This document shows, piece by piece, positions 1 to 39,493 of a DNA stretch of 39,493 nucleotides. Within the stretch, counting starts at the first letter, position 1, and every line of letters begins with the position of its first letter. The stretch comes from a virus. The notes under the pieces were generated by a model. That model was given only the letters and a program-made list of their open reading frames with translations. It made no database searches and was not told the origin of the DNA. The DNA lies in IMG/VR virus record IMGVR_UViG_3300021440_000063, positions 1-39,493 of that record. One strand, written 5' to 3'. The translations under genes were made by a program, and so were the position numbers.

Positions 1-3000
1 GGCCGCCTGGGTGTAGCCGATGTTCAGCGCGGTGTTCATGAAGGAGTAGAAGACCGTGAACAGCTTCAGCGCCGGGCTGCCGCGCTCCACGGCCGACAGG
101 TCTTTCGTGGCCCCGCCGCCCTGCGCATCGATCACCGCTTGGTCGGCCATGGCCTTGGCTCGGCCGTCCTCGTTGCCCTCGCTCAGCGCCTTCTCGTAGG
201 CGCCCAGCCAGGTCGGCACGTCCACCGCCTGCTGGAACCGCATCATCAGCCAGTAGGCGTAGCGGCCGGCCGCCTCCTTCACGGCGCTCTGGCCCTCCAC
301 CTGGTTGCGCAGCTCGGCCAGCTCGCGGAAGCGGGTGCGCTGCCGGCTGGCCATGAACTCGCTGGCCTCGTTGACTTGGCGCGTGGCGTCGATGGGGTGG
401 GCGATGTACTGCGCCACACCACGGGCGATGTGCGCCGCACCGACCCGGACGATGGATTGCGTCAGGCCCAGCGGCTGCATGGCCGCGCTCATCACGTTGA
501 AGCCCAGGCCGGCGATGCTCACGCCCTGACGCACGCGGGCCAGACCGGCCTCCAACGCATTCTGCAGCCCCTTGTCGCCCTCGGCGATGTCCTGCACCCA
601 GCTCTTGAACTGGTGCACCACCTCGGGCCCGTAGTGGCCGCGGATGGCTGCGTCGATCTTGTCGGACCGCAGCAGCTTGTTGACGTCGATCAGCCACTCG
701 TGCCAGGACAGGTCGTGGATGACGTCATTCACCCCGCTGTAGACGCCCTGCAGCGTATAGAGCAAGGGCCGGCCGTTGATCTCGCTCGCGCGGGCCTTGG
801 TGAAGCCGCGGCGCGTCGTGGCGCTGGTGTAGGCGCCCTGCAGCTGGCGCTTGTCCGACTCGGCATCGCTGTGCTGCTCGGCGCGGTTGTTGGCCAGCGG
901 GTCGTACTTGATCGGGTAGTAGCCGCCGCGCAGGGTGACGGTCTTGCCGTCGCTGGTCTGCACCGTCAGCTCCTGCGGGTCGATCCAGTTGGGCTCCTTC
1001 CCGTAGACCCGGCGCTCCTTGGCCGCGATCAGCGGACGGTAGCTCTCGAAGTGGTCCCACACCGCCTGCACTGCCTGCCAGTCGGCCGCGCTCAGTGTGG
1101 CCAGCACGGGCTGGATCTGCTGGATGCTCCAGCCCTCGCCGCTCAGCATGCGCTGGACGTTGCCGGCGTTGCCCATGTTCAGCGCCATGGCCAGCACCTG
1201 CTCGCGATTCATGCTGCGCCCGATGCTCGGGAAGTGCTGCCCCTTGCCGCCCAGCTTGGCCGACTTCATCAGCGGCGCCATGATGGCCACCAGCTTCTCG
1301 GTGGCCTCGGCACGCATGGTCGTCTCCATGTCGCCGCGCTCGTTGGCGGTGCGCACGAAGAACTCCCACATGGGGCCGCCGTCCTTGCCGCCGTCAAGGA
1401 TGCGCGCCCAGCCGGCCGCCTTGATGTGCGAGGCCCCGAAGCGCTTGACCGCCTGCAGCCAGCGCCCGCCCTTGGTCGCCGGTGTTCGGGTGTCGGCGGT
1501 CTTGCCCTGAGCATGCTCCTCGATGCTGTCGGTGATCTGGTCACGCGCCGCCTCGAACTCGCGCGTGGCCTTGGCGGTCAGCAGCTTGTTCTTCAGCCGG
1601 CCCAGGTGCTCGATCTGCTCGATGGTGTCGCGCAGGCCCCGGACCTGCTCCACCGTCATGTCCTTGTAGGACTGCAGCGCGGCGGCCTGCTCGATGGCGT
1701 CGGGGATGTCGGGCTCGATGCCCTGCTCCCGCTGCGCCTCGATCCATTCGGCCAGGCTGCGGCGCTTGTCCACCGCGCGCAGGCTCTCGGCCGATCGGAA
1801 CGAGAACGACACCAGCAGTTGCTCGATCTGGTCCTGGTAGTCGACCGCGATGGCTTTCACCCGCTTGTCGAACTTGCGGAAGTAGACCGCCGCCTTCTCC
1901 ATCTCGGTCTGCGCCTGCAGTGCCGCCTTGGCCGCCTCGCTCTGGATCAGCTGCGCCTGCTTGGCCTGGGCTGCGGCTTTGATGTCGCCGGCCTTGGCCG
2001 CCTTCGCTGCCTCGCGCGCCGACCGCGCCTCGCTGGCCAGGTACTGGCCAGGCCGCAGGTCACGCACCTTCAGCCGGGCAATGATGCCCTGGGCGATGCT
2101 GCGGGCCTCGCGCCGCATCACGTCCACCGTGCTGCGCTGGCCGGGCTGCTTCTCGCGCACCTGGGTTGCCTGGCGCAGCGCCAGCAGCTCGGTGGCGATG
2201 AACCGGCTACGCGCGTCGTTGTGCAGCGCCTCGTCGGTGGCGCGCTCCAGCCCCTCGGGCGTGGCCAGGTCGCCGAACCGCTCCAGCATGCGCTGGTCGG
2301 TCAGCGCCTCCACCGCCTCCTTGGGCGGCTGCGCTGCGGCCAGGGCCTGCACCATCTCGTCGCCGCTCTGGAAGCCGAACGTCTCGGCCACCACATCCGG
2401 GTCGATGCCGTTGGCCTCGCTGGTCATGCGCAGCGCGGAGAGCTTGCGCCAGATGGCGTCGGTGGCATTGCCGTAGCGCTCCTTGAGGGTGGCGGTGTTG
2501 AGCTTGCCGAACAGCACGTTGTCGGGTAACGGCTGCACAGGCTCATCGGCCAGGCGCCGCGCCTCCATGTCCTTGGCGTAGTCGTGCCAGTTGCTGTAGA
2601 CCGGGCTGCCCCCCAGTTCGCTGCCGATGGCCGCCTCCAGGTCGTCCAGCGTGGTGCGCCCGTACTCGTCGGTGGTCAGATACCCGGCATCGGCCAGCAT
2701 CTGCGCCATCTCGTCAGCCGTGTGCCCGCCCTCCTTGCGGAAGATGGGCCGCCCGAACACGCCCGATTCGGTGCGGTGGTAGTCAGGGTGCACGCCGGCA
2801 TCGCGCGCTGCGCTGTCGCGGTTGATACCGCCCATCTTGGCGATGGCCACCAGCAGGCTGTCGCCGGCCGTGTCCAGCTGCTTCTGGTCGGGCTGGGCCG
2901 TGTCAATGTCGGCACCTTTGCCGGTCAGGAACTGCCAGGCCCGGTACACCGGCTGGCCCATCACATCGGCCCGCGCCTCCAGCCGCACCTCGCGCCGCAA

Positions 3001-5724
3001 CCCATCGGCCCGGCGCTGCAGCTCCTTGAGCTTGCGGCCGCGGGCGTTCTGCAGCCACTGCATGTCCTTCAGACCCTTGGCCTGCAGGTTGTCGATGGCC
3101 GTCTGGGTGGCGTCCAGCGCCAGCGCTTGGTAGGCCGCCCACTGCTCGGGCGTCATGCCGGCCTGCTCGGCGGTCTGGAACAGCGCGCCCATGCTGCGCG
3201 CAGCCTCGGCCGTCTGGATCTGCTCGGTGGTGGCCAGCATGCGGTCCATCACGCCCCGCACCTCGTCTGTCAGCGTGACGTTCAGCGCCTTCAGCTGCTT
3301 GTAGACGTTCAGCATCCAGGCGCGGAACTTCTGGAACGGGCCCTGCAGTTCGACGCTGGGCGCGCGGCCCTCGAAGGCGTAGGCCTCGAAGCCGCGGGCG
3401 AACTGCTCATGGTGCGGGCGCTTCTCGTCGCTGCTCAGCGTGAACCACTGCGACAGCGCCGACTGCTCGGGCGTGTCTTGGATGCCGAACCACGCCAGCA
3501 GCTTCTGCGCGTCGGCCAGGATTTCGGCCTCGCCGGGCTCGATGCCGGCGCCCTGGCGCTGCTGGGCTTCGATCTTGGCGGCCAGGTCGGTCAGCACCTC
3601 AAGGTAGAAGTGCCCCATCTCGTGCACGGTGGTCGAAAGATCAGCGCCCTGCAGCAGCGTGATGATGCTGGGGGTCGCAGTGATGTCGGCGCCGAGGGCG
3701 ATCTGGCCGCGGGCGTTCTGCTCCAGGATGCTCGGGTTTGCCGGGTCGAAGTTGCCGTTGTTGCCGGTGGCGTGCTTGATCTGCACGGAGTCGAACACCA
3801 CGTAGGTGTCGGTCGTCATGAACCGCATGTCGGGCGAGCCGTGATAGACAACCAGCGGCTTGCCGGCCTTGTCCACCACCTTGCTGCCGCTGAACCATGC
3901 ATCGAAGTTCGGGTTGCCCGGCTGCTCCAGCACCGTCTCCCCCTCGGCCACCGTGCCCTGCACCCGCAGCGGGTAGCGCGCTGCCATCTCGCCCGGCGTG
4001 ATGCCAAGCCGGGCCGCCTGCACCGCGAAGAACGCCCCCAGGGCCGCGCCTTCGGCCTTCGCCACGTCAGGCGTGCGCCCGGCGCTCTGCAACTGCTCCA
4101 CGAACCCGGCCGCCACCTCGTCGCGGCTGGCCTGGAATGCCTCGTCGCCCTGCTTCTCGCTCAGCACACGGCCGATCTCGGCCTGCAGCGCCTCGCCGTG
4201 CTCTTGCATGTAGACCTTGGCCTCGGCCGGGCTCATGGCGTCCGAACCGGTGCGCGCATGCTCGAGCAGCGGCTGGGCGAACTCCTGGCCCGCCGTCAGG
4301 AACTCGCCCGTGGGGATGACCACATCGCCACCGGTAGCCAGCGCCTGGTCGTACTGCGCGGCGACGGACGGCAAGGCCTGGGCAAGCGCAGCCAGATCGA
4401 CCCCCGACTCGCCCAGCGCCTTCGCGTCCACGTACAGGTTCGGCACGTGCTCGTCGGCCAGTGACTGCGCGAAGGTGGCGAACTGGTCCGGCGCGCGCTC
4501 GCGCAGCTTGGATGCCTCGGCCAGAGTGGACATCTCGGCCAGGGCCTGGCCGGCGCGGTCGGCTTGCTCGGCCTGGGCCTTGAATCGGCCGGCGTTCTCC
4601 AACACCCGCTGCCCGGCCTTGGCCGCGCCGATCTGCGCGCCCCCGCCCACGATGACGGACACCACGGTCTGCGCCACGGCCTCGGGCTGCTCGGCCAGGA
4701 AGTCGCGCAGTGACTTCTCCGGGTTGATCGTGGCCCACTCGTTGAAGTTCTGCCACAGCGTGGCCGACACCTCGCCCGGCATCTCCCGGCTGATCTCGTA
4801 CATCGCCAGCTTGGTCGCGCTGGCGCCGGCCGTGGCCTTCTCCAGGAACCCGCCCAGACCGAAGAACTTCTCGGTGACCCACTCGGCCATCGCATCGGCC
4901 GTGCCGTAGATCAACGATGTGCCGACCCCGGCGCCCTGGTCGCGTGCCTTGTTGTAGGACTGGCCGCCCTGGTTTGCCGCCTGCACGGCCAGCGCCAGCG
5001 GAATCGCAATCTCGGGCGCCGCCACCGCCAGCAGTGCGCCGGCCGTGCCCATGGACTGCACGGCGCTCTGGATGCCGGACTGCACACCGCCACCCAGGAT
5101 GCCGCCCATGGTCGGGCTGATGCTCTTGGCGGTGGCCATCGTTTCGGCCGCCAGTTGACCGAAGCCGGCTGCCGCGCGCCCTGCCGGGTTCTCGGGGAGG
5201 ATGCGCGCATCCACCAGCGGCTGAACGCCCTGGGCCAGCACATCGAACCCGGCGCGGGCCAGCCCGCTGACGCCAGCCGAGAAGATGAACGGCGCCGCGG
5301 CCACGTCCTTGATGAGCCCGGCGCCGTTCGGGTCCGCGCTGGTGATGTACCGCGCCGCCTTGCTGATGGCCGTCTCCAGCATCGCCAACGGAGCGCTGTC
5401 GTCGTGGGCCAGCGCGGCGAAGTCGGCGTCGGTGTACCGGCTGCGCAGCGTGGGCGTCTGCGCCGTGTTGTCGCTCAGGGCCTTGAGCTTGGCCGCGCGC
5501 TCGGCATCGGCCGGCAGCGCCTGCACAGCGGGCGGCGTGGTGCCCAGATAGCCGGCCACGCGGCGGGCCCGCGCCGTGGCGTCGGGGTCAACGCCCAGCG
5601 CCTGGGTGGCCGATGCCCGGAACCGCATCTCCTGGTCGTCCCGCTCGGCCTGCATCATGTCCAGGTAGGGGTTGGCTGCGGCAGGGCTGCCGGCTCGCAC
5701 CAGCGAGAGGTAGTCGTTGGGCAT
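1..5724 (-). CDS. Giant polyvalent ejection protein (T7 gp16 position), N-terminal 1908 residues; continues at the other end of the window
   Basis: An open frame with no stop runs from the ATG at 5724 to base 1 (checked triplet by triplet) and continues, through an 8-base end overlap, to a stop at 39000, giving about 2069 residues. It follows gp14- and gp15-like genes, the position of T7 gp16, the large internal virion protein ejected into the host. Residues ~608-665 match the two ends of the ART-PolyVal ADP-ribosyltransferase fold: WF..SKVVD, YHG at 627-629, then YVVF at 641 and an ATGN..NFDP tail. Only about 11 residues lie between YHG and YVVF, so the toxin core looks deleted. Immediately after comes a zinc metallopeptidase motif HEMGHFYLE (HExxH at 701-705). 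The middle (~1200-1420) is Ala/Glu/Lys-rich and probably helical. The ATG is 3 nt after the gp15-like stop. Ejection role is inferred from position; the motifs are seen directly. Confidence 0.85.
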   Translation of the reverse strand, partial: MPNDYLSLVRAGSPAAANPYLDMMQAERDDQEMRFRASATQALGVDPDATARARRVAGYLGTTPPAVQALPADAERAAKLKALSDNTAQTPTLRSRYTDADFAALAHDDSAPLAMLETAISKAARYITSADPNGAGLIKDVAAAPFIFSAGVSGLARAGFDVLAQGVQPLVDARILPENPAGRAAAGFGQLAAETMATAKSISPTMGGILGGGVQSGIQSAVQSMGTAGALLAVAAPEIAIPLALAVQAANQGGQSYNKARDQGAGVGTSLIYGTADAMAEWVTEKFFGLGGFLEKATAGASATKLAMYEISREMPGEVSATLWQNFNEWATINPEKSLRDFLAEQPEAVAQTVVSVIVGGGAQIGAAKAGQRVLENAGRFKAQAEQADRAGQALAEMSTLAEASKLRERAPDQFATFAQSLADEHVPNLYVDAKALGESGVDLAALAQALPSVAAQYDQALATGGDVVIPTGEFLTAGQEFAQPLLEHARTGSDAMSPAEAKVYMQEHGEALQAEIGRVLSEKQGDEAFQASRDEVAAGFVEQLQSAGRTPDVAKAEGAALGAFFAVQAARLGITPGEMAARYPLRVQGTVAEGETVLEQPGNPNFDAWFSGSKVVDKAGKPLVVYHGSPDMRFMTTDTYVVFDSVQIKHATGNNGNFDPANPSILEQNARGQIALGADITATPSIITLLQGADLSTTVHEMGHFYLEVLTDLAAKIEAQQRQGAGIEPGEAEILADAQKLLAWFGIQDTPEQSALSQWFTLSSDEKRPHHEQFARGFEAYAFEGRAPSVELQGPFQKFRAWMLNVYKQLKALNVTLTDEVRGVMDRMLATTEQIQTAEAARSMGALFQTAEQAGMTPEQWAAYQALALDATQTAIDNLQAKGLKDMQWLQNARGRKLKELQRRADGLRREVRLEARADVMGQPVYRAWQFLTGKGADIDTAQPDQKQLDTAGDSLLVAIAKMGGINRDSAARDAGVHPDYHRTESGVFGRPIFRKEGGHTADEMAQMLADAGYLTTDEYGRTTLDDLEAAIGSELGGSPVYSNWHDYAKDMEARRLADEPVQPLPDNVLFGKLNTATLKERYGNATDAIWRKLSALRMTSEANGIDPDVVAETFGFQSGDEMVQALAAAQPPKEAVEALTDQRMLERFGDLATPEGLERATDEALHNDARSRFIATELLALRQATQVREKQPGQRSTVDVMRREARSIAQGIIARLKVRDLRPGQYLASEARSAREAAKAAKAGDIKAAAQAKQAQLIQSEAAKAALQAQTEMEKAAVYFRKFDKRVKAIAVDYQDQIEQLLVSFSFRSAESLRAVDKRRSLAEWIEAQREQGIEPDIPDAIEQAAALQSYKDMTVEQVRGLRDTIEQIEHLGRLKNKLLTAKATREFEAARDQITDSIEEHAQGKTADTRTPATKGGRWLQAVKRFGASHIKAAGWARILDGGKDGGPMWEFFVRTANERGDMETTMRAEATEKLVAIMAPLMKSAKLGGKGQHFPSIGRSMNREQVLAMALNMGNAGNVQRMLSGEGWSIQQIQPVLATLSAADWQAVQAVWDHFESYRPLIAAKERRVYGKEPNWIDPQELTVQTSDGKTVTLRGGYYPIKYDPLANNRAEQHSDAESDKRQLQGAYTSATTRRGFTKARASEINGRPLLYTLQGVYSGVNDVIHDLSWHEWLIDVNKLLRSDKIDAAIRGHYGPEVVHQFKSWVQDIAEGDKGLQNALEAGLARVRQGVSIAGLGFNVMSAAMQPLGLTQSIVRVGAAHIARGVAQYIAHPIDATRQVNEASEFMASRQRTRFRELAELRNQVEGQSAVKEAAGRYAYWLMMRFQQAVDVPTWLGAYEKALSEGNEDGRAKAMADQAVIDAQGGGATKDLSAVERGSPALKLFTVFYSFMNTALNIGYTQAA

Positions 5725-34088: not shown

Positions 34089-34687
34089 GCCGCCGCATCG
34101 CCAGGCCTGTTAAGCCAGAACCCGTACCCATCGTCTGGACGCGGGCCGATCCGGCTGCGCTCGCCAGCTTCGATCCCCGCACCAAGGTGTGCTCGATGAA
34201 CTGCGGACCGAGCGCCACCGACCCACGCACCGCCGCCGAGCGAAAGCTGCTCTGCGATGAGTGCTACCTCTCTTCTAACCCGCCGGTCAGCCCGGCATCA
34301 CCCAAGGAGCAACCCTTGAAGCTCGACACCCTCCCGGCCATCGGCCAGCCCCTCGATGCCGGCCTGTTCGCCGGCCTCACCACCAAGCCCGACGGCACCC
34401 ACTGCGCCGTGGTGCTGCTGGCCGACAAGCCCGCCGAGGCCGTGACCTGGCAGCAGGCCATGGCCTGGGCCAAGAAGCTGGACGCCGAGCTGCCAGCCCG
34501 CCCCGTCTCGGCGCTGCTGTTCGCCAACCTCAAAGACCATTTCGAGCCTGCGTGGCACTGGACCTGCGAGTCCTATGACAGCTCGTATGCCTGGTTCCAG
34601 TACTCCTACGGCGGCTACCAGAACAACATCGACAAGAGCTATGCCGGCTGCGCCCGAGCCGTCCGCTTGATTCAGCTCACCGCTTGA
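34085..34687 (+). CDS. Open frame joining a Cys-rich small protein to DGR target 1
   Basis: From a TTG overlapping the previous stop, the frame stays open for 200 residues. Residues ~18-62 (VWTRADP..LASFDPRTKVCSMNCG...AAERKLLCDECYL) resemble a short zinc-knuckle protein found alone in related phages. After a Pro-rich stretch it runs in frame into the DGR target domain. No stop codon separates the two, so it may be made as a fusion, as the separate target from TTG 34316 (see that entry), or both. Confidence 0.5.
   Translation: MSRRIARPVKPEPVPIVWTRADPAALASFDPRTKVCSMNCGPSATDPRTAAERKLLCDECYLSSNPPVSPASPKEQPLKLDTLPAIGQPLDAGLFAGLTTKPDGTHCAVVLLADKPAEAVTWQQAMAWAKKLDAELPARPVSALLFANLKDHFEPAWHWTCESYDSSYAWFQYSYGGYQNNIDKSYAGCARAVRLIQLTA
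34316..34687 (+). CDS. DGR target protein 1 (small C-type-lectin-fold, VR1)
   Basis: Started at TTG 34316 with AAGGAG 7 nt upstream, this is 123 residues: LDTLPAIGQPLDAGLFAGLTT, VVLLADKPAEAVTWQQAMAWA, LFANLKDHFEPAWHWTCE, then the variable segment SSYAWFQYSYGGYQNNID and KSYAGCARAVR. This is the DUF1566-type C-type-lectin scaffold used by DGR targets, in which TR-copied codons sit on the ligand-binding face. VR1 lies at 34577-34666. It is not fused to a tail fibre, so the binding partner and location (virion, cell surface, or cytoplasm) are unknown; no signal peptide is visible. Confidence 0.82.
   Translation: MKLDTLPAIGQPLDAGLFAGLTTKPDGTHCAVVLLADKPAEAVTWQQAMAWAKKLDAELPARPVSALLFANLKDHFEPAWHWTCESYDSSYAWFQYSYGGYQNNIDKSYAGCARAVRLIQLTA
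34577..34666 (+). repeat. DGR variable repeat VR1
   Basis: Aligned codon by codon to the TR at 35743, VR1 differs at 9 positions in its first 24 codons, all at template A (A to T or G). The only other change is CGC to TGC at 34649, shared with VR2. GAC AAG AGC TAT GCC and GCC CGA GCC GTC CGC are identical. Confidence 0.9.
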
Positions 34688-34723: not shown

Positions 34724-35179
34724 GTGACCACCATCACCCTTGAATCCATCAAGACCGAGCACGAAAAGCTGGGCGCGATGATCGCCGCCCTGGAGGCCGC
34801 CGCGCCGAGGCTGCTGATCCTGCGAGAGGCGCAGATCGAGCTGCGCCAGGGCGAGCGCTACGCCGGCCTGGTGCTGGGCCCCGATGGCCTGGCCGCCCAC
34901 CACCTGATCCTGCTGCCCGGCGAGGCCGAAGACGTCGCCTGGGCCGACGCCAAAGCCTGGGCCGAGAAGGCCGGCGGCGAGCTGCCGACCCGCCAGGAAC
35001 AGGCGCTGCTGTACGCCAACCTCAAGAGCGAATTCCAGCCACGGTGGTACTGGTCCAGCCAGGCGCATGAGTCAGACAGCTCGTATGCCTGGTGCCAGGG
35101 CTCCGACAGCGGCTGCCAGGGCGACAACGACAAGAGCTATGCCGGCTGCGCCCGAGCCGTCCGCAGATTCGCCGCTTGA
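34724..35179 (+). CDS. DGR target protein 2 (small C-type-lectin-fold, VR2)
   Basis: This 151-residue protein starts at GTG 34724 (GGAG upstream). Residues 1-30 are a coiled-coil-like helix (SIKTEHEKLGAMIAALEAAA). Then comes the same scaffold as target 1: GERYAGLVLGPDG..HHLILLPGE...VAWADAKAWAEKAGGELPTRQEQALLYANLKSEFQPRWYWSS. The variable part SSYAWCQGSDSGCQGDND and KSYAGCARAVRRF close it. The two targets are paralogues diversified from one TR. VR2 currently encodes several Gly, Asp and Cys where VR1 has aromatic residues, so they should recognise different ligands. No export signal is seen. Confidence 0.85.
   Translation: MTTITLESIKTEHEKLGAMIAALEAAAPRLLILREAQIELRQGERYAGLVLGPDGLAAHHLILLPGEAEDVAWADAKAWAEKAGGELPTRQEQALLYANLKSEFQPRWYWSSQAHESDSSYAWCQGSDSGCQGDNDKSYAGCARAVRRFAA
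35075..35167 (+). repeat. DGR variable repeat VR2
   Basis: Compared with the TR, VR2 has 12 substitutions in the core, all at template A (to G or T), plus the shared CGC to TGC. Identity with TR continues through GTCCGCAGAT, slightly longer than for VR1. Confidence 0.92.
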
Positions 35180-35207: not shown

Positions 35208-35573
35208 ATGGCCCTGCACACCGACCTTCCGATCTACCGCACCGGCGTCCAGCTGCTTGCACTGGCCGTCAAGGTGCAAGAGCAGATGCCGCGCGGCGTC
35301 AAACGCTCGCTGGGTGACAAGATCAGCCAGCACTGCGTCGAGATGCTCGACCTGATGGCGCTGGCCAATGCCACCAAGCACGCCGAGCGTGCCGCCAACA
35401 TAGCCGAGCTGATGAAGCATCTGCGCGCAGCCACCGTGCTGCTGCGGGTGAGCCACGACAGCCGCTACGTGTCGCACAAGCTCTGGGCTGACTCGGTGGC
35501 GCTGCTCGACAGCATCGGCAAGCAGGGCGGCGGCTGGATCAAGTCCGCCACGAACAGGGCGCCTGCAGCATGA
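35208..35573 (+). CDS. avd: DGR accessory variability determinant (Avd)
   Basis: This 121-residue four-helix-bundle protein has the opening ALHTDLPIYRTGVQLLALAVKVQEQMPR, then LGDKISQHCVEMLDLMALANATKH, a helix ending ATVLLRVSHDSRYVSHK, and the C-terminal SIGKQGGGWIKS. Each piece matches Avd proteins that bind the reverse transcriptase and TR RNA in DGRs such as that of BPP-1. It lies between the targets and the TR, the usual order. The stop overlaps the next in-frame ATG. Confidence 0.9.
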   Translation: MALHTDLPIYRTGVQLLALAVKVQEQMPRGVKRSLGDKISQHCVEMLDLMALANATKHAERAANIAELMKHLRAATVLLRVSHDSRYVSHKLWADSVALLDSIGKQGGGWIKSATNRAPAA

Positions 35574-35742
35574 CGGTCAAGGCCCTCATGTCCGTGCGCA
35601 ATTTGAATCTGGTCGCGCCGCTGGCCCACGAGGCCACCGCCATGCGCACCACGGAGACCGCTGCCGCTGCGCAGGCCCGGTCCGGCGCAGTTGCCCCGCT
35701 GATCGGCTACGGCCTTCGGCAGGGTGACGTAGATAGCGCGAC

Positions 35743-35832
35743 AACAGCTCGTATGCCTGGAACCAGAACTCCAACAACGGCAACCAGAACAACAACGACA
35801 AGAGCTATGCCGGCCGCGCCCGAGCCGTCCGC
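35743..35832 (+). repeat. DGR template repeat (TR)
   Basis: This is an adenine-rich copy of the VRs: nine AAC codons stand where the VRs carry varied codons, between invariant AGC TCG TAT GCC TGG and GAC AAG AGC TAT GCC GGC. It lies 169 nt after avd and just before (partly over) the reverse transcriptase frame, as in other DGRs. Its 3' part, GCGCCCGAGCCGTCCGC, is GC-rich, like the IMH region of known systems. Confidence 0.92.
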
Positions 35833-36112
35833 AGATACAGACCTGTTCGAGAAGCTGGTGGCCGCCTTCGTCGACTGCCGGCGCCACAAGCGCAACAGCG
35901 CCAGCACCGTCGCGTTCGAGGCCCGCCTGGAACGCAACCTGTGCGAGTTGCATGACGAGCTGATCGGCGGCCACTACCAGCCCGGCCGCTCGATCTGCTT
36001 TGTCGTCACCCGGCCCAAGCCACGCGAGGTTTGGGCGGCTGACTTCCGCGACCGCATCGTGCACCACCTGCTGTACAACCACATCGCGCCGCGGTTTCAT
36101 GCCGGCTTCACC
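35807..36112 (+). pseudogene. DGR reverse transcriptase, truncated after its N-terminal part
   Basis: The frame encodes DLFEKLVAAFVDCRRHKRNSASTVAFEARLERNLCELHDELIGGHYQPG, then FRDRIVHHLLYNHIAPRF. This is the N-terminal 'fingers' part of DGR reverse transcriptases. After HAGF the match ends at about 36110 and the sequence becomes the reverse complement of an integrase gene; the frame stops at 36268. Motifs with the catalytic aspartates (YxDD) and the thumb are absent. ATG 35807, inside the TR, is the nearest start; an ATG at 35570 is in the same frame. The product cannot synthesise cDNA. Confidence 0.85.
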
Positions 36113-36399
36113 TCCACCACCCTGGCCTGCTTGGCCTGCGCCGGGCTCTCGCCGCGGTCGACCATCGCGCGCAGCTCCTCATGCCTGTCCCGCGCCGCCT
36201 TCAGGCCGAGCGCTGGGTATCTGCCCAGCGTGACTTTCTCGCGCTTGCCGGCCAGGTGGTATTTGTAGCGCCAGACCTTTGAGCCGCCCGGCAGTATCTC
36301 CACCAGCAGGCCGCCGCCATCGGTCAACGAATACGCTTTCGCCTGGGGCTTGGCGTTGTCGATGGCGATGGGTTTGAGCGAGTAATTGACGTGACGCAT
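36097..36399 (-). pseudogene. Tyrosine integrase, N-terminal fragment (DUF4102/P4 type)
   Basis: About 100 residues from ATG 36399 (or 36411): LKPIAIDNAKPQAKAYSLTDGGGLLVEILPGGSKVWRYKYHLAGKREKVTLGRYPALGLKAARD. This is the arm-binding DUF4102 domain of P4-type integrases. The protein ends at a stop at 36097, on the reverse transcriptase junction. The core-binding and catalytic domains (R..H-R-Y, ~300 residues) are missing, so no recombinase activity is possible. It is read leftward, downstream of the late terminator. Confidence 0.85.
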
Positions 36400-36403
36400 G
36401 CCA

Positions 36404-36451
36404 GGGGCCATGAAGTGACCATGGCCCCATTATGGCCCCGCGCATGGCCCC
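36404..36451. repeat. ATGGCCCC repeat cluster, left group
   Basis: ATGGCCCC occurs at 36421, 36432 and 36444, and inverted at 36404-36411 over the integrase start. With the right group this is six copies in about 260 bp. The location next to int suggests integrase arm sites or an attachment region. Confidence 0.7.
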
Positions 36452-36494
36452 GTTTTCGTCGGATGCAACGCAACACGATCAGACAGCAGACAAC

Positions 36495-36527
36495 AAAAAG
36501 CCCCGTTCCTTCATAGGTAACGGGGCC
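36495..36527 (-). terminator. Intrinsic terminator at the end of the leftward late operon
   Basis: Read leftward, an 8-bp stem (GCCCCGTT/AACGGGGC) with a 12-nt loop is followed by TTTTTG. It is the last element of the leftward transcript that passes the fibre and membrane protein genes. A second hairpin, GCCGGG-AGATA-CCCGGC, lies just upstream at 36539-36555. Confidence 0.88.
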
Positions 36528-36555
36528 TTGAATCAGACGCCGGGAGATACCCGGC

Positions 36556-36663
36556 TAGCCTGTCACATGTGGTCGATCATCATATAAATATCGGCTGGAA
36601 ATATAGTATTTACGCGGGGTGTTGACATTCAGCTTCGACCCATGGCCCCATTCATGGCCCCGA
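36556..36663. other. AT-rich intergenic segment with right group of ATGGCCCC repeats (attP candidate)
   Basis: Bases 36560-36615 are markedly AT-rich (atcatataaatatcgg, aatatagtattta) in an otherwise GC-rich genome. CACATGTG lies at their edge. ATGGCCCC repeats follow at 36642 and 36654, plus a TTGACA at 36622. No ORF is supported. AT-rich spacer between repeat groups near int fits a phage attachment site, but no core identity with a host gene could be tested. Confidence 0.45.
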
Positions 36664-36885: not shown

Positions 36886-37102
36886 CACGGCTGGCCTGCT
36901 CGGTCTTGCGCTGGCTGCTGGCGCTGCTGCCGAGCCAGAAGCCGCTGACGTTGCCCAGCACGGTGCCGGTCACCGCGCCGATGACCATGCTCTGCACCTC
37001 CGCGGAGAAGGGGCCTGTCAGCACGCGCCAGGTCACCCAGTACACCAGCGGCATCAGGGTGGCGGTGATCGCAAGGGTGTAGTGCGCGGCCGGTCGGGTC
37101 AC
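36869..37102 (-). CDS. Holin-like small membrane protein
   Basis: This 77-residue protein starts at GTG 37102 overlapping the previous stop. There are two predicted membrane helices (YTLAITATLMPLVYWVTWRVL and MVIGAVTGTVLGNVSGFWLG) and a short charged tail (SSQRKTEQASRD), the layout of a class II holin. It lies after the tail fibre, as T7 gene 17.5 does. Function is inferred from topology and position. Confidence 0.6.
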   Translation of the reverse strand: MTRPAAHYTLAITATLMPLVYWVTWRVLTGPFSAEVQSMVIGAVTGTVLGNVSGFWLGSSASSQRKTEQASRDAPPA

Positions 37103-37455
37103 GAATGCCCCCCGATGATCCAGGCCTTGACGGCAGCCAGGACCGCGCCGGGGCCGCCGAGCGTGTACAGCGCCACAAGCCCCATGATGAACAGCCCGGC
37201 CTTGCTGAACATCGCGCCGATGGTGCCAAGAAGCCACCCGCCCGCCCGCTGTTTGGCCTGAAGCTGGATCGCTGCGCTGGCCTGCTTCCACAGCTCGGGA
37301 TTGCTGACGGCGCGCATGATCCCCTCCTCGATTGCCACACTGACCTGGGCGCACATGAGCTTGCGCATCGCCTCCAGTTCGTCGTCGTGGCGCGCGATCT
37401 GAGACGCCAGGTAGTCGTCGCGGGTCTCGGCCTGGTGTGGCATGGCGGCACCCAT
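37099..37455 (-). CDS. Membrane-associated protein beside the holin-like gene
   Basis: This 118-residue protein starts at an ATG overlapping the tail fibre stop. The N-terminal half is polar and helical (YLASQIARHDDELEAMRKLMCAQVSVAIEEGIMRA). The C-terminal half has a Gly-rich hydrophobic region (WLLGTIGAMFSKAGLFIMGLVALYTL, then LAAVKAWIIGG). It may be a holin partner or anti-holin; I do not recognise the family. ATG 37443 is an alternative start. Confidence 0.55.
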   Translation of the reverse strand: MGAAMPHQAETRDDYLASQIARHDDELEAMRKLMCAQVSVAIEEGIMRAVSNPELWKQASAAIQLQAKQRAGGWLLGTIGAMFSKAGLFIMGLVALYTLGGPGAVLAAVKAWIIGGHS

Positions 37456-38936
37456 CAGGTGAGCGCCGCGGTCCATTTCCACACCCCGGCCGTGTACACG
37501 CCGACCTTGTTGGTCGAGGTGTCGTAGTAGAAGGGCACCCGGCCAGCCGGTGTGACTGCGGGCGTGCCTGGTACGCCGGCGCCGGACGGCATGTAGTGGA
37601 AGCCGTTGGTCATCGCCGCGGCGCCGGCCTTGCCGTACACGTTGCCGTCAATGTCGACCCTCAGGCCTTCGGTCATCGTGGCCAGGGTGCCGGCGCCGGC
37701 CGGTGCGCCTGCGGCCTTGGTGTAGACGTGGAACCCGCCGGTGTCGAACTTGCACGTGACCGCCACGTCGCTGATGGCCTTGTTGTCCGTCTGCGGGTTG
37801 TAGTTGTAGCCCAGGTGCGGATAGTCCAGCGAAGTCAGCGCCCCGATCATGAAGGGCACCGACGGGTTCACCGTGAACAGGTTGTTCACTTGCAGCGGGC
37901 TGCCGAAGAACGACGGGGCACCCTGTTGCGTCACGTAGATCGGGTAGTTGGCAACGCTGCCCTTGGTCTGCAGCGGGATGTAGATCCCGTAGTTGTAGTC
38001 CACCGTCCCGCCGCCCACCGGGTTGAAGCAGAACAGGCCGTAGTTGTTCGTCGCGTTGCCGCTGTTGAACGTCGGCGAGGACACGAAGTTGTAGACGTGC
38101 AGCAGCGAGCCGCCGCTGCGGCTGACGGTCGGCCTGGCCTGGAAGCCGGCGATGTGGTCATTCGTGCCGGCGCCGCTCGACGTGATCGCGGCGTCGAAGC
38201 TGGCGTAGCTGTTGGCCGTGCGCCCGAAGGTGGTCTGATCCCTGAACCCGTGGCCGTCCAGCACGCCGGCCGACAACGTGCGCGCCGCGCGGAACACCGC
38301 GTCGGGCGTGCCGGTGTCGTCGGTGTTCGTGCCCTCGAACCGCGGCGACTGGATGCGCACGTTCGCCACCACGTTGTCGCTGCCGTCGATGGCCAGGCCG
38401 CGGGCGATGTAGGCGGCCAGCGCCGCCGCCGTGCCGTCGCCGACCGCGGCCATCACCGGATTGCCGCTGCTATCGAACGCCAGGAACAACCCGGCGCGAC
38501 TGGCTGCGGCCGGCAGCAGAGGAAGCCCACCGATCTCGGGCACGCGCAGGGCCTGTACAACGCCCACCACGCCAAGCTGCTGCAGCAGGATCGTCAGCCG
38601 ATCCAGCGCCCCCTCGATGACCTTGGGAAAGAAGCCCCCGCCGTTCGTCAGCGACACCGGCTGCGTTGCCGGCACTGCGCTGGAGATGTTCAGCCGGTAG
38701 CCGATGGGGAGAACGGACGCCAGGTTGACGGTGCCGCCCGGAGAAACGTCCTGGTCGGCATTGAGGGTGACGCTGTAGCCGGACGACAGCACCAGCGTGC
38801 TGATGACGCCCACAGTGTCCGTGCTGGTCACCAGCAGGTCGCTGCCCTGGAAGACTTTGAAGGTGAACGGGTAGACGCTGACGGCACCCGTGCCGGTGTA
38901 GGGGCCGGCGGTCCGGGCTGAGGTGGCGATGGTCAT
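37455..38936 (-). CDS. Tail fibre protein with T7 gp17-type N-terminus
   Basis: This 493-residue protein has residues ~1-115 that follow the T7 fibre attachment domain pattern: YPFTFKVFQGSDLLVTSTDT, SGYSVTLNADQDVSPGGTVNLASVLPIGYRLNISSAVPATQP. The shaft and tip are Gly/Asn/Thr/Ser-rich (EGTNTDDTGTPDAVF, NATNNYGLFCFNPVGGG). The C-terminus is PAGRVPFYYDTSTNKVGVYTAGVWKW. It has no DGR variable repeat. It follows the gp16-like gene across a 63-bp gap that contains a GGTGCACCTGA repeat and a GACTGCCGGCAGTC palindrome, possibly a promoter or processing site. Confidence 0.85.
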   Translation of the reverse strand: MTIATSARTAGPYTGTGAVSVYPFTFKVFQGSDLLVTSTDTVGVISTLVLSSGYSVTLNADQDVSPGGTVNLASVLPIGYRLNISSAVPATQPVSLTNGGGFFPKVIEGALDRLTILLQQLGVVGVVQALRVPEIGGLPLLPAAASRAGLFLAFDSSGNPVMAAVGDGTAAALAAYIARGLAIDGSDNVVANVRIQSPRFEGTNTDDTGTPDAVFRAARTLSAGVLDGHGFRDQTTFGRTANSYASFDAAITSSGAGTNDHIAGFQARPTVSRSGGSLLHVYNFVSSPTFNSGNATNNYGLFCFNPVGGGTVDYNYGIYIPLQTKGSVANYPIYVTQQGAPSFFGSPLQVNNLFTVNPSVPFMIGALTSLDYPHLGYNYNPQTDNKAISDVAVTCKFDTGGFHVYTKAAGAPAGAGTLATMTEGLRVDIDGNVYGKAGAAAMTNGFHYMPSGAGVPGTPAVTPAGRVPFYYDTSTNKVGVYTAGVWKWTAALT

Positions 38937-38999: not shown

Positions 39000-39493
39000 C
39001 TACCGCTGCTCCTGGAAGCCGAACACCAGTGCGGCCGGGTTCTGGGTCTTGCCCTCGTTCAGCGCCTTCGCACCCGTAACCGTGCGATTGATCTGCGCCG
39101 TGGGCAGGCCGAACACGCCGCCCAGCAGGTTCAGGAACGACTTTCGGAAGGCGTCATCAAACTCGCCCTGCTGCGCCTGCTTGGCGAACTGCACACTGTC
39201 GCCAACCACGCGCAGGCCGGCCGGGCCGCCATAGTCGCGCACATGGTCCTCCAGCCCTGCCACCGCCTTGCCGGCCGTGGAGAACTCGCGCACCAGGGCG
39301 AACAGGCCGATGAGGTAATCCAGCTGCGCGGCCAGCAGCTTCTTGATCGTCTTCTCCTCGTCGTCACCCGGGTCGCCCGGCGTCAGCGCATCCTTCAGCA
39401 GCACGCCCAGCACGGCCGGCACGGAGTACAGCAGCAGCATGTCGGCCGCCAGCTTGGCCCGGCCCTTGGTCGTATTCTCCGACGTGGCCGCCT
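39000..39493 (-). CDS. C-terminal end of the giant polyvalent protein (partial, enters from the window edge)
   Basis: The frame is open from the right edge to a TAG at 39000. It holds a hydrophobic stretch (MLLLYSVPAVLGVLL), an acidic turn and an amphipathic tail ending FGFQEQR. The last 8 bases of the window equal the first 8. If the ends are merged there, the frame reading off base 1 continues in register into this segment, giving ...NIGYTQAATSENTTKG. It is therefore the last ~161 residues of the protein that starts at 5724. Without merging, the two frames do not match. The tail fibre gene follows 63 bp downstream, as gene 17 follows gene 16 in T7. Confidence 0.8.
   Translation of the reverse strand, partial: AATSENTTKGRAKLAADMLLLYSVPAVLGVLLKDALTPGDPGDDEEKTIKKLLAAQLDYLIGLFALVREFSTAGKAVAGLEDHVRDYGGPAGLRVVGDSVQFAKQAQQGEFDDAFRKSFLNLLGGVFGLPTAQINRTVTGAKALNEGKTQNPAALVFGFQEQR

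Follow-up and report, generated by a model that had tools for sequence, protein, structure and literature searches.

Bordetella phage BPP-1 (Rauchvirus) carries a DGR composed of an Avd accessory protein, a template repeat (TR) and a reverse transcriptase (RT), an annotated attP and an integrase at the end of its early operon; both its RT and its integrase are annotated without truncation. Another group of DGRs, found in Magia, Cruim01, the QDWS-type phages and the IMG/VR locus L008, has its target genes in the early operon, includes an RT-15 RNA annotated in Cruim01, and comes with a full-length RT and a complete integrase, mostly on the same strand. The genome analyzed here, a virus record of 39493 bases from an environmental sample (the window, taken as a whole), resembles both. 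Its bbp13-like and bbp10-like virion genes are 63% identical to those of BPP-1 at the amino acid level and its late genes likewise lie on the - strand, but the BPP-1 DGR sits in the late operon beside mtd, the BPP-1 RT is only 37.5% identical to that of the window, and the BPP-1 attP matches tRNA-His. The DGR itself belongs to the lineage of Magia, Cruim01, the QDWS-type phages and L008 (63-85% amino acid identity over the RT fragment, up to 95% for Avd), sharing the RT-15 RNA and the early-operon targets. Unlike in those phages, neither the RT nor the integrase is whole, and the two are cut at one point:

35828..36112, + strand, 5' part of the DGR RT, about 95 of about 365 conserved-region residues; the catalytic core is missing
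36107..36113, no strand assigned, junction fusing RT codon ~95 (+) to the antisense of integrase codon ~100 (-)
36109..36411, - strand, N-terminal part of a P4-type tyrosine integrase, arm DNA-binding domain only, in an ORF that ends at 36097; the core-binding and catalytic domains are missing

The RT start is contained in the ORF at 35570-36268 (+). The initial annotation had placed the end of the RT family match near APRFHAGF, followed by antisense integrase sequence, and alignment bears this out, with homology running from SADTDLFEKL (35828) to HAGFT (36112). The fragment aligns with 80 IMG/VR loci, L008 being the best (85% amino acid identity), and in nearly all RT relatives DNA homology to the window ends at about 36087-36115; the alignments of L011, L013 and L036 trail further, into non-homologous sequence. 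Counted from the same SADxDLF start, the intact relatives whose lengths were printed span 363-370 residues vs. about 95 in the window, and one full-length RT match is present in 80 of 84 loci. The match between this ORF and PHROG 1423 (Reverse transcriptase) has an E-value of 2.6e-30 but extends over no more than positions 109-204 of the 1040 in the profile. Profile searches of the record, which gave matches in control genomes for RVT_1, Phage_integrase and Resolvase alike, found no RVT_1 domain, and thus no complete RT with a catalytic YxDD. Nor did profile search of the record reveal any additional RT, tyrosine integrase or serine recombinase.

The integrase has lost its distal part at the same place. 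Homology begins at about 36105-36109, and the fragment carries Pfam Arm-DNA-bind_3 (PF13356, 4.9e-23). It is 55-76% identical at the amino acid level to the integrases of L088-L092, which extend over 395-415 residues from the conserved MRHVNY region; only about 100 are kept in the window, confirming that everything past the DUF4102-type arm domain is gone. The Phage_integrase catalytic domain, present in L088, is absent from the record by profile search, as is the Resolvase domain of serine recombinases, and the phage has no functional integrase of its own. As a separate observation, the arm-only ORF (36097-36408) is a better match to phrog_3423, a 157-position profile of unknown function, than to phrog_1, the integrase family; phages may commonly encode short proteins with an arm domain.

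When aligned with L008-L023 (RT) and L088-L090 (integrase), the two fragments abut at about 36107-36113, and no more than a few nt fit both genes. At the codon level, the RT can be followed up to the T codon at 36110-36112, and the integrase down to its V codon at 36109-36111, so that the two protein homologies share just a few nt, about 36109-36112. Queries with a full-length RT and a full-length integrase match only the fragments: the missing halves occur nowhere else in the record, which rules out their inversion or translocation. The claim that one event cut two convergent genes, with both DGR activity and self-integration lost in cis, is well supported.

Whether such a junction belongs to a phage or to an assembly depends in part on how the record closes. 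Its ends interrupt one virion gene:

1..5724, - strand, 5' part of the bbp10-like virion gene, running off the left end; BLASTP match to bbp10 up to residue 1889
39000..39493, - strand, 3' part of the same gene, from the right end; the ORF at 39000-39491 matches bbp10 residues 1892-2052

Between the ends (39486-39493 and 1-8) there is an overlap of exactly 8 nt, and no other length from 4 to 59 nt tested gives one; closing them yields one uninterrupted frame (GYTQAATSENTTK), and bbp10 homology resumes at the next residues. Because the ends close in frame inside one bbp10-like gene, the record can be drawn as a circular map, which places the two sides of the junction in one genome. The virion genes agree with BPP-1 kinship: tail protein bbp13, an endolysin-like protein and bbp10 follow one another in the same order. 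The early genes encode, among others, RecT- and RecE-like proteins, NinB, a DNA methyltransferase and a CI-like repressor. No relatives sharing the right-arm gene at 37099-37482 were found. The suspicion that the contig is a chimera of two phages at the junction has become unlikely, since such a chimera would not be expected to close in frame; closure does not argue against an assembly that skipped a segment of the same, intact phage. Skipping of this kind, or the joining of two strains, would mean that RT and integrase are whole in the real population, and it accords with the fact that the junction is seen in a single record, presumably metagenomic: its exact 30-mer was not matched, and the junction not spanned, by any other of the IMG/VR records searched, from which close ones may be missing. 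On the other hand, the few nt common to both sides would be too short for a usual assembly k-mer. We regard an artefact as improbable; the event would have taken place in the phage population.

Beyond the truncated integrase lies what its complete form would have acted upon, and a repressor gene is encoded elsewhere:

36404..36451, no strand assigned, attP arm on the int side, four ATGGCCCC repeats (36404 -; 36421, 36432 and 36444 +), putative arm-type integrase sites
36561..36582, no strand assigned, attP core TGTCACATGTGGTCGATCATCA, whose complement encodes ..MIDHM*, the end of icd
36642..36661, + strand, attP arm on the far side, two ATGGCCCC repeats, in the same layout as in L088
26301..26801, - strand, CI-like transcriptional repressor (PHROG 35, E 3.6e-16), a sign of temperate ancestry

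All six ATGGCCCC copies of the window fall within 36404-36661; a total of six, wherever placed, is attained in 4% of shuffles. The core is identical over 22 nt to the int-icd junction of L089. In L089, L092, L206 and L207, the integrase adjoins the 3' end of a gene encoding one shared peptide or a close version of it; in all three cases tested this gene is Pfam Iso_dh, and it is read as isocitrate dehydrogenase (icd). When the integrase was queried against 768 genomes, icd adjoined two (L206 and L207) of the three strong matches; a tRNA gene was also considered as a neighbor of the related integrases, and none was found, icd standing there instead. The window thus has kin among the icd-integrating P4-type integrases (L088, L089, L092 and L206), with which it shares the attP core and, in L088, the type of arm repeat; unlike the window, these loci encode complete integrases, with Phage_int_M and Phage_integrase domains shown for L088. 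Since arm repeats stand on both sides of the core, the attP appears to be unintegrated: the phage apparently keeps an unoccupied attP for icd, with arms and core intact, but lacks the integrase catalytic domain. It may depend on helper functions or have become obligately lytic, as the initial annotation proposed; as both the attP and the CI-like repressor survive, an integrase supplied in trans could in principle rescue lysogeny.

The probable explanation is a single event, a natural deletion or an illegitimate recombination, by which the phage lost DGR mutagenesis as well as self-integration in cis. The ancestor would have been a BPP-1-like podophage of temperate ancestry in which a DGR at the end of the early (+) operon, with two targets, Avd, RT-15 RNA, TR and RT, faced an icd-specific P4-type integrase (-) with its attP. 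A deletion, or an illegitimate recombination between sequences with next to nothing in common, would have joined RT codon ~95 to integrase codon ~100, taking away the RT catalytic core and the integrase core-binding and catalytic domains. No less than ~1.75 kb would have gone, and perhaps 4-5 kb had there been genes in between. The genome as read would then be unable to mutate its variable regions (VRs) or to integrate by its own enzymes.

Gene order in relatives makes a deletion between such genes plausible, since convergent RT and integrase genes are known among them. Of the 47 DGR relatives with a downstream integrase in reach, 39 carry it in the orientation of the RT and eight in the convergent one. 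The convergent arrangement occurs in three of the five closest relatives by rank (L009, L010 and L012), with a distance of about 3 kb; in L080 (7995-10389), a whole DGR RT and a whole convergent integrase abut by their 3' ends. The initial annotation had called for a relative with both genes intact; L080 provides the convergent pair, but no such BPP-1-like relative is present among 92 loci, none of which combines BPP-1 kinship with either the DGR or the integrase of the window. Because no BPP-1-like relative has both genes intact, deletion within one genome and recombination between two phages fit alike. The main rival is a natural mosaic junction, in which an L008-like DGR end and an L088-like int-attP-lysis end came from two different phages and no ancestor had the genes facing each other. 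It is favored by the integrase that follows the RT on the same strand in L008, the closest DGR relative, by the fact that DGR relatives and integrase relatives are different phages, and by the lack of a BPP-1-like relative with both DGR and integrase; yet with convergent RT and integrase in several relatives, an ordinary deletion takes fewer steps, and mosaicism, though the chief competitor, seems unlikely.

Upstream of the junction the DGR is preserved:

34578..34670, + strand, variable region 1 (VR1), at the end of the first target gene, whose ORF ends at 34687
34724..35179, + strand, DGR target gene 2, lectin-like, with a weak Lcl_C / FGE-sulfatase match
35076..35168, + strand, variable region 2 (VR2), at the end of the second target gene
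35208..35573, + strand, intact Avd accessory protein (Pfam bAvd 4.2e-10; PHROG 3206 Avd 4.1e-23; 95% amino acid identity to L008)
35557..35748, + strand, complete RT-15 RNA (Rfam RF03018, 173.3 bits, E 3.2e-42)
35744..35836, + strand, TR, 29 A in 93 nt, differing from the VRs at A

The TR and VRs are near-identical repeats that differ at adenines, and Avd accompanies them. Leaving out the last 4 nt of VR1, the substitutions fall at A in 8 of 9 and 11 of 12 positions, 19 of 21 in total; the sole non-A difference is one C-to-T, the same in both VRs. This pattern suggests that the DGR was active in the recent past. Both targets are small lectin-like proteins of the early operon. When the whole record was searched with the TR region, copies turned up only in these two genes and none in the tail-fibre gene at 37455-38936, which gives no sign that the variants act as receptor variants, as the initial annotation had assumed. 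Retention of the TR, the RT-15 RNA, Avd and two diversified VRs might also be read as a non-autonomous DGR served in trans by the RT of a co-infecting phage or a related prophage; however, a recent deletion gives the same picture and nothing shows activity after the loss, making such an arrangement very improbable.

Several features favor a recent loss over a long-standing one. The RT fragment has a dN/dS of 0.19 vs. L008 (intact pairs, about 0.12-0.46) and the integrase fragment 0.16 vs. L088 (intact pairs, 0.15-0.37); clear relaxed constraint on the RT fragment was not seen in comparison with the intact pairs. Because both fragments thus behave like intact genes, the loss looks recent relative to the divergence from known relatives. 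The retention of attP, repressor, Avd, TR and DGR RNA, as well as VRs that differ from the TR almost only at adenines, point the same way. The most likely reading is that a formerly temperate phage has recently undergone an ordinary deletion, such as other phages are known to show.

Damaged DGRs do occur among the relatives. L154 (14038-17241), a BPP-1-like IMG/VR record, lacks the counterpart of BPP-1 1934-3009, i.e., nearly all of the TR and the 5' part of brt, and its deletion ends have 10 bp in common. L010 (8001-8428) has lost the middle of its RT to an internal deletion, running out of frame after FTADT while keeping the TR and VR-like copies. The break starts a few codons past that of the window, and a common deletion hot spot was entertained and set aside, there being two cases only. 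The RT of L027 (7158-7910) is cut after residue ~246, with no further RT match in the following 2.6 kb of contig. Overall, the RT is broken inside the contig in two of the 80 related loci sampled.

The window offers a clean snapshot in which hypervariation and self-integration would have been lost in one step, with attP, repressor and DGR templates left in place. Estimates of the rate at which DGRs are shed by phages could profit from it; beyond that, it represents real but ordinary genome decay. The DiGReF survey described DGR RTs inactivated by transposon insertions, nonsense or frameshift mutations (PMC3521204). Unlike these truncated RTs, that of the window ends at a single junction that also removes the integrase.
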